Part shown: one piece after another, positions 336-41,489 of the stretch
How positions within the stretch are numbered: position 1 is the first letter of the stretch
How the letters are laid out: each line of letters begins with the position of its first letter
Notes under the pieces: model-generated
Seen by the model: the letters and a program-made list of their open reading frames with translations, nothing else
Database searches by the model: none
Told to the model about the DNA's origin: nothing
DNA from: Alphaproteobacteria bacterium
GTDB taxonomy: Bacteria > Pseudomonadota > Alphaproteobacteria > SHVP01
DNA: 41,489 nucleotides
Assembly: GCA_016869765.1 (NCBI GenBank)
Contig: VGES01000033.1
Span: forward strand, 1-41,489
Direction: 5' to 3'
Translations under genes and position numbers: made by a program

Positions 336-1067
336 GTGAACAAGCTTCCCGACACTCCGCTCATTCGCTTCTACAAGACGCCGGCGATGCGTTGCCCGTA
401 CCTGCCCGACAGGCAGGAGCGCCTGGTCTTCGCCCATTTGCGTGGGGAGCAGGCGGATTCGCTACACAATGTCCTGGCGCAAGCCGGCTTTCGGCGCAGC
501 CACAATATCGTCTACCGCCCCGATTGCGACCACTGTACCGCCTGCGTTCCGGTTCGCGTTCAAGCGGCCCGCTTCACGCCCGATCGTCGCTTTCGCCGTG
601 TCCTGGCGCGAAACGCAAACGTGCAGGCCGTCGCCCTGCCGCCGCTCGCATCTCCGGAACACTTCCGGCACTTCGCGACGTATCAGGCGAGCCGCCATCA
701 AGACGGCAGCATGGCGCAGATGGATTTTGAGGAATACCGCGCGATGGTCGAAGACACGCCCGTCGAGAGCTTGATGATCGAGTACCGCGACCCCGACATG
801 AGCCTGTTCGGTGTCGCCTTGACCGACCGTCTCCAGGACGGCCTTTCCATGGTCTACAGCTTCTTCTCTCCCGATCGCGCCGAGCGAAGCCCGGGCACGT
901 TCATGATCCTCGATCACATCCAGCGGGCCCGAGAGCTGGGCCTGCCCTATGTCTATCTCGGGTATTGGATCGAGGACTGCAACAAGATGTCCTACAAGCG
1001 GCGCTTCCGCCCCATCGAGTTGCTCACCAAGACGGGCTGGCGCGTCGATCGCCAACCCACGCGCTAA
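336..1067 (+). CDS. bpt: Aspartate/glutamate leucyltransferase (bacterial arginyltransferase family)
   Basis: The 243-residue product transfers an amino acid from aminoacyl-tRNA to N-terminal acidic residues of proteins, feeding the cytoplasmic N-end rule pathway (ClpS/ClpAP). It shows the family signature RFYKTPAMRCPYLPDRQE near the N-terminus, a cysteine cluster CDHCTAC (C64, C67, C70), and the C-terminal acyltransferase-fold stretch YVYLGYWIEDCNKMSYKRRF. Length is typical (about 240-250). Translation starts at a GTG, because the MNKLPDTP start matches where family members begin and no better ATG lies nearby. Its TAA overlaps the bioY stop codon by 4 nt in a convergent arrangement. Whether it uses Leu (Bpt) or Arg cannot be told from sequence alone; Bpt is usual in proteobacteria. 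Confidence 0.93.
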   Translation: MNKLPDTPLIRFYKTPAMRCPYLPDRQERLVFAHLRGEQADSLHNVLAQAGFRRSHNIVYRPDCDHCTACVPVRVQAARFTPDRRFRRVLARNANVQAVALPPLASPEHFRHFATYQASRHQDGSMAQMDFEEYRAMVEDTPVESLMIEYRDPDMSLFGVALTDRLQDGLSMVYSFFSPDRAERSPGTFMILDHIQRARELGLPYVYLGYWIEDCNKMSYKRRFRPIELLTKTGWRVDRQPTR

Positions 1068-1654
1068 CGGCGGATCGCGGCGAGCGCGCGCCAGGCCATG
1101 GGCAGCAGCGCCGCGAGGATCCCGATTTTGACCGCATCGCCGAGCAGGAACGGCGCCACGCCACCCGCCCAAGCCTTGTCGATGCCGATATTGACGGCAA
1201 GCCAGCCGGCGCCGAGGGCATACACGATCAGATTGCCGATCACGAGGGCAACGAGCGCTAGGAGCGTCTTTCGATCCCAGCCGCGTTCCGCCAGCCATCC
1301 GACCACGAGGGCGGCCAGGAGAAACCCGTACAGGTAGCCGGCCGTTGGTCCGAGGAAATACGCCAAGCCGCCGCCGCGCGCGAACACCGGAACACCGAGC
1401 GCCCCGGCGATCAGGTAGGCGGCCAACGTCGCCGCCCCGAGGCGCGATCCATAGGCAAGCGCGATGGCAAACACGGCGAGGGTCTGCAGCGTCATCGGAA
1501 CTGGCCAGAACGGCACCTGCGCCCGCGCCGCAAGCGACAAGAGGACGACTCCGAGACCCACGAACACGAGCGTTCTCAGGACAGAGAGCGCGGCACCCGC
1601 CTCCTCGTTCACCGGCCAAAGCGCGCGGGCAAGCGTGGGGTTGGCAGTCGTCAT
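1064..1654 (-). CDS. bioY: Biotin transporter BioY (ECF S component)
   Basis: This 196-residue integral membrane protein has about six hydrophobic segments. It carries the BioY hallmarks VPFWPVPMTLQTLAVF (residues about 48-63), GARLG-like YGSRLGAATLAAYL, the glycine-rich LGPTAGYLYGFLLAALVVGWLAERG, and a C-terminal GGVAPFLLGDAVKI. BioY is the biotin-binding S component of energy-coupling-factor transporters; the shared ATPase/T components (BioMN) are not in this window. The ATG is preceded by GAGGT at suitable spacing. It lies 63 nt downstream of parC on the same strand and may be the last gene of that operon. No BioR-type operator was seen in the 63-nt gap, so its control is unclear. Confidence 0.93.
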   Translation of the reverse strand: MTTANPTLARALWPVNEEAGAALSVLRTLVFVGLGVVLLSLAARAQVPFWPVPMTLQTLAVFAIALAYGSRLGAATLAAYLIAGALGVPVFARGGGLAYFLGPTAGYLYGFLLAALVVGWLAERGWDRKTLLALVALVIGNLIVYALGAGWLAVNIGIDKAWAGGVAPFLLGDAVKIGILAALLPMAWRALAAIRR

Positions 1655-36460: not shown

Positions 36461-37498
36461 ATGGGATTCATCGACGCGGATGCCCATGTCTGGGAGAGCG
36501 AAGATACCTGGTCCTACCTGACCAGCGGAGAAAGACGCTGGAAGCCGGTGCTGCAAACCACGGACGGCGAGCAACACGAGTGGCGCGGCCTGAAACACTT
36601 CTGGTACGTGGACGGACAGTTACTTCCATCCGGACGCGACGCTGCACCGGACGCCCCTCCGGAGCACGATCGAACGCTCGCTGATCCGCGGGCCCGCATC
36701 GCCGCGATGGATCGGCACGGCATCGAAACCCAGGTGGTAATCTCGACCTTCTTCTTGGGGGCCGACATTCGGCAGGCGGAGGCCCAGGTTGCCCTCGCCC
36801 GGAGTTGCAATCGTTGGCTCGCCGATCGCTGCCGGGCGAGCAACGGACGCTTGCGATGGTCCATCGTTCCTCCTCTTCGCGACATCGCGGCAACGATCGA
36901 GGAGATTCATCATGGTGCAAAGAACGGCGCTGTCTCGATCCTGGTGCGCGGCGTCGAAGCTGGACGGCTTCTGACGGATCCCTACTTCCACCCGGTCTAC
37001 GCCGAGGCCGAGCGCCAGGGCTTGGCGGTTGGCGTTCACATCGGAAACGTCGATCGTGCGATTCACCATCAGCGCGCCGGGATCATCTTCTCTGTGCTAC
37101 CCGTGGTCGGCGCGTTCATTGGCCTCTTCGTCAGCGACATCCGGCAACGGTTTCCGTCCCTCAATTTCGCGTTTCTGGAAGCTGGCTCCGAGTGGCTGCC
37201 GTTCGCATTCCGGGAAATCTCTCGTGGTGCGGACACCGGGCGACGCAAGCACAACGTGCTCGGTTCGATGCCGCTGGCTGGTGCTCGGTTCTTCGTGGCG
37301 TGCACGATGGATGAGGATTTGCCTCATGTGCTGCGGTGCTCTGGGGCAGAGAACCTTGTCATCGGCACCGACTACGGTCACCAGGACCTCGGAACCGATG
37401 CTGCTGCACATGCGTTGCTACTTGCGCGACGGGACGTGCCTCGAGACGTCCTCAGCCAGATCAGCGACTCGAACGGCCGCGTCCTGTATCGACTCTAG
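36461..37498 (+). CDS. Amidohydrolase-family (ACMSD/amidohydrolase 2-like) metal-dependent enzyme
   Basis: This 345-residue TIM-barrel protein has an N-terminal metal motif FIDADAHVWESEDTW (D5, D7, H9), as in the D.D.H variant of amidohydrolase-2 proteins. A further His lies in AVGVHIGN (about 188). FAFLEAGSEWLPF has Glu in place of the His of many ACMSD proteins, as in several relatives, and the final Asp is in VIGTDYGHQD. It likely hydrolyses or decarboxylates a cyclic carboxylate imported by the TAXI transporter encoded just upstream; that link is inference. Its last 27 codons overlap the C-terminus of the convergent PaiB-like gene by 81 nt. Confidence 0.85.
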   Translation: MGFIDADAHVWESEDTWSYLTSGERRWKPVLQTTDGEQHEWRGLKHFWYVDGQLLPSGRDAAPDAPPEHDRTLADPRARIAAMDRHGIETQVVISTFFLGADIRQAEAQVALARSCNRWLADRCRASNGRLRWSIVPPLRDIAATIEEIHHGAKNGAVSILVRGVEAGRLLTDPYFHPVYAEAERQGLAVGVHIGNVDRAIHHQRAGIIFSVLPVVGAFIGLFVSDIRQRFPSLNFAFLEAGSEWLPFAFREISRGADTGRRKHNVLGSMPLAGARFFVACTMDEDLPHVLRCSGAENLVIGTDYGHQDLGTDAAAHALLLARRDVPRDVLSQISDSNGRVLYRL

Positions 37499-38131
37499 CT
37501 GTCCGTCTGTCGACGACCGAGTCATTGCAGCAGATATCTGCCGAGACTTGGCATCGTCTCGCTCGGCGAGCGCCCGAGCAACGGCTTCGCGGTCTCGCGA
37601 GTTGCGATTCTGCGAGAGCTTCGCCTTGCCCTCGACGCGTTCCACGTCGATCGCAAATCCGACAATTCCCCGGAGCATCACATCGAGGGACTCGGATGAA
37701 AGTTTTCCGATAGTCCAGACAGGCTTCGGCGCCAAACGCGCCTCATGGATGGCACTCAGTCGTTCGACGATGTGCTTCAACTCTGACCTGTCGCCAACGT
37801 GGCGTATTCGCCCCCGTAGGTGGATGACGACATAGTTCCAAGTCGGTACAAGGCCCTCACTCTCATACCAGTCCGGAGAGACATAGGCGTCGGGTCCACT
37901 CAAAACGACGAGGGACTCGCGTCCATCGAAGCAGCGACGAACCGGATTGGCCTGCGCAACGTGTCCTAGGAGCGTTCCGAGAGGGGTTGGGCCAGGAACC
38001 TGCACTAGGGGTACGTGAACCGCCTCGACCTCCCCGCGATCGGCGAGTGTCACGATGCCGAGGCCATGAGACGAGAGGAATTCGCCGACGCGACGAGTTG
38101 CATCGAACGCGAAAGCCGAGGGCGTGTACAC
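37418..38131 (-). CDS. PaiB-like FMN-binding protein
   Basis: This 237-residue split-barrel flavin-binding protein, annotated as a transcriptional regulator family, has the start MYTPSAFAFD, then VEAVHVPLVQVPG, GTLLGHVAQANPVRR, VVLSGPDAYVSPDWYES and VPTWNYVVIHLRGR. The closing signature KLSQNRNSRDREAVARAL is typical. It should bind FMN or haem-like ligands in the cytoplasm. The protein continues about 40 residues beyond the normal end, with TAG at 37418, and that extension lies antisense to the amidohydrolase end. It starts 2 nt after the DUF1501 stop on the same strand and may be its operon-mate. Confidence 0.88.
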   Translation of the reverse strand: MYTPSAFAFDATRRVGEFLSSHGLGIVTLADRGEVEAVHVPLVQVPGPTPLGTLLGHVAQANPVRRCFDGRESLVVLSGPDAYVSPDWYESEGLVPTWNYVVIHLRGRIRHVGDRSELKHIVERLSAIHEARLAPKPVWTIGKLSSESLDVMLRGIVGFAIDVERVEGKAKLSQNRNSRDREAVARALAERDDAKSRQISAAMTRSSTDGQLESIQDAAVRVADLAEDVSRHVPSRK

Positions 38132-38133
38132 GT

Positions 38134-39405
38134 TCAGGAGGCTCGCTGGCCGAACAGCTCCAAAGGAGCAAAGCCTCGTCTCGTGAACTCACTTTGCTCC
38201 AAACCCCACCATCCCTTCAGCACGCCGGCGTAGACCTGCCGGAAATCGACGTGGTGTTTGAGGTTGCCGAAGTCGAGATCCTCTAGCGACGGCTGACGAC
38301 CATGAAAGCCCCCCGCGACGGCGCCGCCGGTGACGAACATCGGTCCGGCGGTCCCATGGTCGGTGCCATTGCTCTCATTCTCCGCAGGCCGGCGGCCAAA
38401 CTCCGAGAAGACGACAACCAACGTGTTCTTCCAATACCCCATGTCGATCATCGCAGACCGGAAGCCCGCCAATGCCGCCCCGAGCTGGGTCATCAACGGG
38501 TCATGGCGCGGGCGCAACGAAATGTGATGGTCGAAACCCGGCAGAGTCACTTTGATCACCGGAACATCGACTCCGTCCGCAATAACGTCCGCGACGTTGG
38601 CCAGGCGACGCCCAAGGACGGTCCCCGGTAGGACCCGCCCGTAACGACCGGACCCGGTGATTTTTGCCCGGAGACGATCGGCCGTTGCCGCAGCGTCACG
38701 CTGAGTTCGAATGAGATGGGTTACGGCGGAACTAGCGGGACGATCAGCGACATCGCGAATCTGGCTCGCCCCAAGTACGTAACTGCGTGGGTCGACCATT
38801 GCAGCGATCCGTGTCGTCGGCCCCATGATGGTGCCTGCACTACCGTCGCCGATGACGATTGCATCGGCATCTCCCGAACGATGCGACAGGATCGGATGTG
38901 TACCGATCGCACGCGAGAGCCATCCCTCCTGTAGGAACTCCTCGCTATCGGACGCTGTCTCCCATATTTCGATCGACCGAAAATGCGAGAGGTTTGGCCG
39001 CGGGTAACCAACGCCCAAGACGATGGCCAACTCCCCCTTTTCCCACGCTGGTAACAGTGGGACTAGGCCAGGGTGCAGGCCCAATTGTTCGTTCAGGGGC
39101 GTGATCTCGTCAGCTGCTAGGGCAGAACGAGGCCGAAGCTTTGCATAGAGCGGATCCGCGTACGGAACGAGGGTGTTGAGCCCGTCGTTCCCCCCGGCCA
39201 ACTCAACGAGGACGAGTGTCCGACCTGGCGGTAGTCTAGGCGCAGGTCCGACCGCCAATTTGTTGGCGCCCTCTATCGCGTCGGGTGTCGCCGGAGCCGC
39301 CGCCCGAGGCGGCGCCACGGATCGCGGCGGCTCAACCCCTGCGCACGCCGCGAGGGTTAATGCAGTTCCGCTCGCGAGAAAAGTTCGCCGGCTAAGCCCG
39401 ATCAT
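38134..39405 (-). CDS. DUF1501 protein (Tat lipoprotein)
   Basis: This 423-residue exported protein starts with a twin-arginine motif SRRTFLASG (5-13) and a lipobox LAAC with C21, so it is probably a Tat-translocated lipoprotein. The DUF1501 domain (sulfatase/alkaline-phosphatase-like fold) shows LVELAGGNDGLNTLVPYADPLY at about 65, quoted as GGNDGLNTLVPY, then LGLHPGL, and a C-terminal NTLVVVFSEFGRRPAENESNGTDHGTAGP in pieces: FSEFGRRP and GTDHGTAG. It always pairs with DUF1800, whose gene is 7 nt upstream. Function unknown; the pair is often linked to outer-surface or polysaccharide-related processes. Confidence 0.9.
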   Translation of the reverse strand: MIGLSRRTFLASGTALTLAACAGVEPPRSVAPPRAAAPATPDAIEGANKLAVGPAPRLPPGRTLVLVELAGGNDGLNTLVPYADPLYAKLRPRSALAADEITPLNEQLGLHPGLVPLLPAWEKGELAIVLGVGYPRPNLSHFRSIEIWETASDSEEFLQEGWLSRAIGTHPILSHRSGDADAIVIGDGSAGTIMGPTTRIAAMVDPRSYVLGASQIRDVADRPASSAVTHLIRTQRDAAATADRLRAKITGSGRYGRVLPGTVLGRRLANVADVIADGVDVPVIKVTLPGFDHHISLRPRHDPLMTQLGAALAGFRSAMIDMGYWKNTLVVVFSEFGRRPAENESNGTDHGTAGPMFVTGGAVAGGFHGRQPSLEDLDFGNLKHHVDFRQVYAGVLKGWWGLEQSEFTRRGFAPLELFGQRAS

Positions 39406-39412
39406 GATTTCC

Positions 39413-41335
39413 TCACCTTAGCTGGTAGCTCAAGTCATCGAGGAAGGACCGAACGGCCTCGGCGCCGCTCGATCCCGACTCGAACACCATGGGAGCGGCA
39501 GGGCCGAGGCTGCGCCAAACCCCCGCCGGCTGACCCAATCCTGACGGGAGCGCCGCCAACCAGTCGTCGAAACTACGCGTCGTACGACGGCCTGCCAGAA
39601 CCCGCTCCCAAGCGGCCCTCGCCTTCATTGCCATACCGTCATCCATCGCCATACCCATGCTCATCTCGCTGTCGCTAGCCGTCTTCACGGGCTTGGCAAG
39701 GTCGAACGTCAGCGTTCCACTGCAAAACATGTTGCCCGGCCGCGGGCGGTTCGGACACCGATCGACTTGCTCGGCATCGGCGGCCGCGAGCAGCCGATCG
39801 CCAAGCTCGATCCAATCAACGTAGAGATTGCGGTCACATACCAGAACGCCGTCCGATCGCAGTGCAGAGTCGTTGACGAAATCGATCGAAATCTTCTGCA
39901 CGGCGGTTCGAGGCGACTTCAGCGGAAGCTCGATCATTCGGCGTTCGAGTTCCGCCGGATCCCCCGGGCGCCCGAGCGCTTCGCTATCGTGGCCGAATGT
40001 CAATGTCGTATCGGCAATCGTCGCCCCATCCGCCTTGACGACGATGCGCGGACCTCCTCGACAGTTCTCCGCCGCCAACCGAACCCTCAATCGTTGATCC
40101 TCGGGCAAAGCCATACCGGCAGACATGTCGATCGACACCGTCTGCCAGCCAACCAGACGATCGATGGTCTGACGTCTCACCAACAAAGTATGTGGCGTGA
40201 TCCACAGCGTACCGCCCGGCCAACCCTTCACGTTCGGTGGATCGAACACGTCTTGCCCGAGGCGCTTCGTCATCTGCGGGAGTGAATCGAGATCGGCAAT
40301 CGGCAGATCGAATGTACGGATCGTGCCGACGACAACGTCGATCGGCGACTTGATCAACGTCGTTCGATTGGCGTCCGCCCAGAACGCGTCCGAAACCAGC
40401 ATGGCCCGGAGGAGCGGCTTCAACTGCAGGCCGCTGTCACGAAAGACCTTCGCTAACCGCGCGACTTCCCGTTCTTCAGGCATATCGGAAACGAACTCGC
40501 GCCAGAGTTTGGTTACTACCAGTCGTGCGGCCTCGTCACGTTCGAGAATGATGTCGACGACCGATTGACCGTCGAATCGGCCAGTCTTGCCCAATACTGT
40601 TTTCTGACCGGCGTCGTGCTGCCCAGTGCTGACCAAGAACGTGTAGTTCTTCGCGCGATCGAGCGTCCAACCGCTAAAGGCGCGAGCAACCTCTCGGATG
40701 TCACCCTCCGTGTAGTTCCCTTCTCCCAGCGTGAAAAGCTCCAACAGCTCTCGCGCGAAGTTTTCGTTTGGCCGGCCACGCCGATTGTTGACGTTGTCCA
40801 GGTAGCGCAACATCATCGGATCACGAATCACGCGACCGACCAGGGACCGATAACTGCCGAGCGCATGCTCTCGAAACATGGCGTTCTGGTCGTAGAGCAT
40901 GTGCGACCAATTGATCCCCTCGAAACCCGACGTGAAATGGTTGTGCCAGAACAGCACCATCCGCTCCGTCAGCGGTGTCGGGGTCACCACCATCTCCGTG
41001 AGCCACCACGCCTTCAGCTGACGCACCTCGCTACGACGCACCTGTGTAAAAGCATTGCGCTGCTCAGCCGTCCAGTTCGCCTGATCCCAATAGCCCGGCT
41101 TCTTGTCGTGCACCCAGGCAGGTGGGGGCGTTCCGGCAACAGCGCCGACCTCTCCCAGAAGCAAATCCACCGCTTTTGTTCGGTCGAGCGGCAGGAGGCG
41201 CTTGACCTCAACCGGGTTTGCACCAAACCCCGTCCGCGATACCAAGTGACGTGCCTCTTCATAGGTTAGCGCCGCAGCCTCGCCCAAGAGAAGGCTTGTC
41301 ACGGCGAGCGCTATCGCAAGGCCCAATCTCAACAT
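39413..41335 (-). CDS. DUF1800 protein with embedded CBM60/CBM36-like module
   Basis: This 640-residue exported protein has a signal peptide (MLRLGLAIALAVTSLLLG, cleavage near residue 22). DUF1800 occupies about 25-400: EARHLVSRTGFG, MVLFWHNHFTSGFEGIN, ENFARELLELFTLGEGNYTE and FDPPNVKGWPGG. About 413-512 reads like a calcium-dependent xylan-binding module (IVVKADGATIADTTL, then ISIDFVNDS and DRNLYVDWIELG). A Met-rich stretch MSMGMAMDDGMAM (558-570) and a conserved C-terminal DUF1800-type tail follow. The ATG at 41335 is chosen because GGAG lies 6 nt upstream, although the frame is open to 41434. Gene order DUF1800-DUF1501 is conserved in bacteria. Confidence 0.88.
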   Translation of the reverse strand: MLRLGLAIALAVTSLLLGEAAALTYEEARHLVSRTGFGANPVEVKRLLPLDRTKAVDLLLGEVGAVAGTPPPAWVHDKKPGYWDQANWTAEQRNAFTQVRRSEVRQLKAWWLTEMVVTPTPLTERMVLFWHNHFTSGFEGINWSHMLYDQNAMFREHALGSYRSLVGRVIRDPMMLRYLDNVNNRRGRPNENFARELLELFTLGEGNYTEGDIREVARAFSGWTLDRAKNYTFLVSTGQHDAGQKTVLGKTGRFDGQSVVDIILERDEAARLVVTKLWREFVSDMPEEREVARLAKVFRDSGLQLKPLLRAMLVSDAFWADANRTTLIKSPIDVVVGTIRTFDLPIADLDSLPQMTKRLGQDVFDPPNVKGWPGGTLWITPHTLLVRRQTIDRLVGWQTVSIDMSAGMALPEDQRLRVRLAAENCRGGPRIVVKADGATIADTTLTFGHDSEALGRPGDPAELERRMIELPLKSPRTAVQKISIDFVNDSALRSDGVLVCDRNLYVDWIELGDRLLAAADAEQVDRCPNRPRPGNMFCSGTLTFDLAKPVKTASDSEMSMGMAMDDGMAMKARAAWERVLAGRRTTRSFDDWLAALPSGLGQPAGVWRSLGPAAPMVFESGSSGAEAVRSFLDDLSYQLR

Positions 41336-41423
41336 GCGAACTCCGTGAACTGACACCTCCGGACATACTACACCTGAGCTGGGGTGGATGCGTTCTCGGC
41401 GCCTTGAAGAGCCCTGTAGCGCC

Positions 41424-41489
41424 ATGTTAACCACGACCGCGATGGAAGCTTTGCTCGCGCACGAACCTTGGATTCGCGGAATTTGCTCA
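41424..41489 (+). CDS. Possible start of a sterol desaturase-family gene (3' cut by window end)
   Basis: The last 66 bases, divergent from the DUF1800 gene, encode 22 residues from ATG 41424 (or 16 from ATG 41442): MEALLAHEPWIRGICS at the end. This recalls the N-terminus of fatty-acid-hydroxylase/sterol-desaturase-like membrane proteins (a conserved LL..EP.IR pattern before the first helix). The evidence is short and no clear ribosome-binding site precedes either ATG, so it is a weak call; extension of the sequence will decide. Confidence 0.35.
   Translation, partial: MLTTTAMEALLAHEPWIRGICS

Follow-up and report, generated by a model that had tools for sequence, protein, structure and literature searches.

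A CBM60-type module inserted in a DUF1800 protein, and what it may mean for the DUF1800-DUF1501 pair

Introduction

DUF1800 and DUF1501 proteins are commonly encoded by paired genes, and we know of no established function for either. Pairs of this kind in bacterial chitin-synthase operons were reported in 2016, and a functional link was proposed (PMC5122149). The locus described here has in common with those operons the same DUF1800-DUF1501 gene pair and a putative connection to polysaccharides, whereas no chitin synthase was found in its source genome and, conversely, no carbohydrate-binding module (CBM) in DUF1800 was described for the operons (PMC5122149). A preliminary description of this DNA held that its CBM gives the first clue to where the pair acts; this was overstated, as the 2016 link precedes it. 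No description of a CBM60 within DUF1800 was found in the searched literature, and the architecture may already be listed in domain databases, since it is visible with public profiles.

The second point of comparison is the CBM60 family (PF16841), of which CBM36 is a circular permutation. The vCBM60 structure was solved with cellobiose (PDB match), and 2xfd exemplifies calcium-bridged binding through adjacent equatorial hydroxyls (PMC4444583). The module discussed below shares with CBM60 (vCBM60; 2xfd and 2xhh) the fold of the whole module, the FxND and DRNL motif and a last LxxxGxLxF strand, but sits inside a DUF1800 protein instead of being appended to a xylanase.

The gene and its setting

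The window analysed is an entire contig of 41,489 nucleotides. On its minus strand, an open reading frame spanning exactly 39413-41335, with its ATG at 41335, encodes a 640-residue protein in which Pfam recognizes DUF1800 and CBM60 and to which NCBIfam assigns no family. The N-terminus, MLRLGLAIALAVTSLLLGEAAA, reads as a probable Sec-type signal peptide (residues ~1-22, 41270-41335; helical over residues 2-17 in the model) and is followed by the DUF1800 helical core (residues ~30-396, 40148-41248), the CBM60 module (residues ~410-548, 39692-40108) and a C-terminal helical cap (residues ~566-640, 39416-39640). Pfam PF08811 matches residues 30-423 with an E-value of 8.4e-110 over profile positions 1-362 of 419. 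The AlphaFold2 model, built on an alignment of 56 sequences, has a pLDDT of 88.6 (mostly above 90 in the core) and a pTM of 0.89. When this model was compared with the PDB by Foldseek, the DUF1800 core being searched as part of the whole-protein model, no convincing match outside the CBM60 module was returned.

The DUF1501 gene lies at 38134-39405 on the same strand. The next gene in the run (37418-38131, minus strand) encodes an FMN_bind_2 (PaiB-like) protein by Pfam; the neighbourhood comparison found nothing similar next to the relatives' pairs, and it is probably not part of the system. The end of the window (~41240-41489) overlaps positions 1-250 of a further contig (C28, locus L026) by ~250 bases with one small difference, so the neighbour upstream of the DUF1800-CBM60 gene is readable: it is a divergent fatty acid hydroxylase-family gene. 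The other neighbours of the pair are an amidohydrolase and a TRAP transporter, and in the window no polysaccharide synthesis or breakdown genes were seen next to it. A second, ordinary DUF1800-DUF1501 pair without a CBM is present elsewhere in the same genome, in which a GH10 xylanase, BcsB and a chitin synthase were each sought and not found. Plasmid records hold DUF1800 homologues, none of them matching >80% of the DUF1800-CBM60 protein.

A CBM60 module by profile and predicted fold

Pfam places CBM60 (PF16841) at residues 416-521 with 30.5 bits against a curated cut-off of 28.2 (E 5e-7), a match above threshold, so the quoted motifs are not chance; for the whole protein, the margin is 2.3 bits. 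Ten of ten relatives scanned pass the cut-off, mostly with higher scores than the window protein. In the predicted model, the module superimposes on 2xfd with a VIA Z of 12.5 (103 of 109 residues aligned, rmsd 2.3 Å) and on 2xhh with a Z of 12.2, while the next-best fold, the lipoxygenase beta sandwich, reaches at most 7.2, and 2xhh and 2xfd, both CBM60, are the only Foldseek matches of the protein below 1e-3. A PDB sequence search with the whole protein or with DUF1800-type modules returned no CBM60, 2xfd included, and neither did one with a single CBM60 sequence; a profile of ordinary CBM60s recovered 2xfd. The hhalign comparison with CBM60s of other proteins gives 99.1% and E 1e-18 and reaches the last strand of the module, FCSGTLTF, with profile and fold comparisons extending to ~residue 546. 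A profile made from other proteins' CBM60s also matches the module of the window protein and those of the remaining carriers, most weakly in L029. By Pfam profile and predicted fold, then, the module is of CBM60 type.

The DUF1800-type module departs from ordinary CBM60 in a ~15-residue extra loop (FGxLPDRxxWxW in relatives) and in a cysteine pair around the last hairpin, C527 and C538 (39722-39757, minus strand; alignment A4), which precedes the last strand; C538 is invariant, and its partner is slightly shifted or differently placed in relatives.

These results bear on most of the preliminary description. The three strings that it quoted, IVVKADGATIADTTL, ISIDFVNDS and DRNLYVDWIELG, are all present in the protein, and the xylan-binding-like module that it saw inserted in DUF1800 is recognized as CBM60 by Pfam and by fold, with the DUF1800 C-terminus resuming behind it. 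It named both CBM36 and CBM60, of which the family matched is CBM60, and its span of residues 400-520 holds the module imprecisely, the profile and fold comparisons giving ~410-548. Neither of the two outcomes that it named as refuting was obtained: a carbohydrate-binding fold is matched (Pfam; VIA Z 12.5 to 2xfd), and relatives retain the Asp/Asn motif.

Insertion into DUF1800 and the lineage that carries it

Where carriers have CBM60, homologues lacking it have a variable linker. Behind the module the DUF1800 C-terminal segment resumes, ending in DPxYQLK, and among 56 homologues, CBM carriers and non-carriers alike, its cap residues D634 and Q638 show conservation of at least 90%; because this conserved segment resumes, the module is, on alignment and model, truly inserted, splitting DUF1800 between core and C-terminal cap. 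The flanking linkers (residues 404-408 and 556-561) are modelled with low confidence, consistent with a tethered domain. A genome of the same family has a 54%-identical DUF1800 copy without the module, and no other inserted Pfam domain was found in eight long homologues scanned. Compared with DUF1800 (PF08811) and DUF1501 (PF07394) pairs outside the lineage, the full core, the C-terminal cap and the adjoining DUF1501 gene are shared, whereas the variable linker of those proteins corresponds to CBM60 in the carriers.

Twelve more carriers, two of them gammaproteobacterial and the others from Rhodospirillales, came from the genome scan with CBM60 at the same place (one of them, L066, is cut off by a contig end); a further one, L029, has in this position a divergent module with a degraded motif that is unmatched by Pfam. 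In the careful tree of 44 rows a single branch (98/95) sets all 14 carriers apart from the rest, and the quicker tree of 112 rows needs three changes for the distribution of the module; on these sequence trees a single origin of the CBM60-carrying DUF1800 lineage is thus well supported but not certain.

The gammaproteobacterial DUF1800-CBM60 proteins (L067 1841-4441 and L068 188-2743; 867 and 852 aa) have a further region of ~200 residues after CBM60, with conserved WPDC and WPxC and no Pfam match, and in L067 a gene with a CBM9-like domain (518-1645, minus strand) adjoins the DUF1800-CBM60 gene in divergent orientation. A PhaC (poly-beta-hydroxybutyrate polymerase) gene lies directly upstream of the DUF1800-CBM60 gene in L057, L058, L060 and L062; it is absent beside the window gene, and the arrangement is probably lineage synteny.

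The calcium and sugar motif

The alignment places the two halves of the CBM60 motif at N488-D489 (FVND; 39869-39874, minus strand) and D501-W508 (DRNLYVDW; 39812-39835, minus strand), a region whose residues N488, D489 and D501 are, by motif identity, putative calcium/sugar ligands. All five motif residues (N488, D489, D501, R502 and N503) are present in the window copy. Among the modules compared, D489 and D501 are invariant (12/12) and N488, R502 and N503 are kept in 11/12, the exception being L029, which has DTHLFIN where others have DRNLFVD. Mean identity over the five motif columns is 95% against 56% for the module; the random-column p of ~1e-5 is only a guide, because the compared sequences are related.

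Several aromatics retained by relatives are missing from the window copy. Relative to most of them, W/Y/F425 has become Cys, W463 Leu, W465 Arg and F/Y516 Leu; with these conserved aromatics lost, the sugar binding of this copy may be altered, and its putative sugar site may have been modified or have disappeared. C425 (40061-40063, minus strand; W/Y/F in 10/11 relatives) and C500 (39836-39838, minus strand; Gly in 10/11 relatives), the latter adjoining the motif, make up a second cysteine pair, found only in the window copy, and may form a disulfide beside the putative calcium/sugar site.

The DUF1501 partner

The 423-residue partner, assigned by Pfam, carries SRRTFLASGTALTLAAC, by inspection a Tat signal with a lipobox. 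Its AlphaFold2 model (pLDDT 86.9) has 67 Foldseek matches below 1e-3, the best of which are all enzymes of the alkaline-phosphatase superfamily (LtaS, sulfatases, EptC), and the VIA Z reaches 17.7 (246 residues) against NPPs, PafA and sulfatases. DUF1501 is thus predicted to have an alkaline-phosphatase/sulfatase-superfamily fold; it shares with that superfamily (NPP, PafA, sulfatases, LtaS) the predicted fold and conserved DxH and DHG-type motifs, at an identity of ~8-15%. Residues S140, D292, H294, E335, D349 and H350 are invariant in 51 sequences.

Of 68 module-free loci, 67 were found to have DUF1501 next to DUF1800, as were all carrier loci that extend far enough for it to be seen. A separate clade (99/96) unites the DUF1501 proteins paired with the alphaproteobacterial carriers and with L029, and the pair therefore travels together; a DUF1501 tree in which all twelve carrier partners are held together is not rejected (p-AU 0.46).

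Proposed function and alternatives

The reading favoured here, to which a probability of roughly 0.55 is given, is that CBM60 docks an exported, periplasmic DUF1800-DUF1501 metallohydrolase pair on a polysaccharide. One DUF1800 lineage would have acquired CBM60 in the variable loop between core and cap; export would be by Sec for DUF1800 and by Tat for DUF1501, which might be a lipoprotein. The two would cooperate in the periplasm or on the cell surface: DUF1501 would be a metal-dependent hydrolase or transferase of phospho- or sulfo-esters, with DUF1800 as its helical partner. The module would grip a polysaccharide through calcium and two neighbouring equatorial hydroxyls, as vCBM60 does with cellobiose, and bring the pair onto the bound glycan, where the docked DUF1501 would form or cleave a phosphate or sulfate ester. 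Profiles and predicted structures support the docking module and the partner fold, and we infer the complex, the ligand and the reaction. That the pair handles a polysaccharide is plausible; the ligand need not be xylan, given that vCBM60 was solved with cellobiose and that GH10 was not found in the genome. Caution is called for by the aromatics lost in the window copy, by the degraded motif of L029, by the fact that no polysaccharide gene was seen next to the pair in the window, and by the searches of this genome that found no GH10 xylanase, BcsB or chitin synthase.

A generic beta sandwich resembling CBM60 by coincidence of fold and motif is already disfavoured and very improbable: the narrow Pfam margin of the whole protein and the failure of DUF1800-type modules to find 2xfd by sequence would suit it, but the gap between CBM60 structures and other beta sandwiches (12.5 against 7.2), the mostly higher Pfam scores of relatives and the cross-match of an independent CBM60 profile to window and carriers down to L029 all point the other way. 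A genuine CBM60 fold might instead serve as a structural or protein-protein insert, perhaps with a structural calcium and no sugar binding, that holds DUF1501 or another envelope component. The loss of conserved aromatics, the new C425 and C500 at former aromatic and Gly positions, with C500 next to the motif, the DTHLFIN of L029 and the failure to find GH10 and BcsB in the source genome lend this some weight, but it is judged unlikely: the window copy and 11/12 modules compared have an intact motif, which ranks among the best-conserved regions of the module, and retention of the fold alone would hardly favour surface-loop columns so strongly.

The docking reading also has a more specific form, in which CBM60 binds the organism's own secreted polysaccharide in place of environmental xylan and the pair modifies this polymer during export. 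The published operon link to chitin synthases (PMC5122149), the second pair without a CBM and the missing GH10 xylanase speak for it, whereas no glycosyltransferase cluster was seen beside the pair and neither chitin synthase nor BcsB was found in the source genome, which leaves it a doubtful proposition, about as improbable as the structural insert.

Implications

More tentatively, and with odds somewhat below even, docking of the pair on a glycan may extend to the families as a whole: DUF1800-DUF1501 would be a widespread complex that modifies polysaccharides in the periplasm, with DUF1800 presenting the glycan and DUF1501, as an enzyme of the alkaline-phosphatase superfamily, hydrolysing or transferring phospho- or sulfo-esters. 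If so, the CBM60 lineage would show openly, through a sugar-docking module of its own, a polysaccharide role of the pair. The natural joining of DUF1800 to a module whose ligand chemistry is known, combined with the predicted fold of the partner, offers a concrete test of DUF1800-DUF1501 function, making testable which glycan the CBM60 module binds and which ester DUF1501 would cleave or make.
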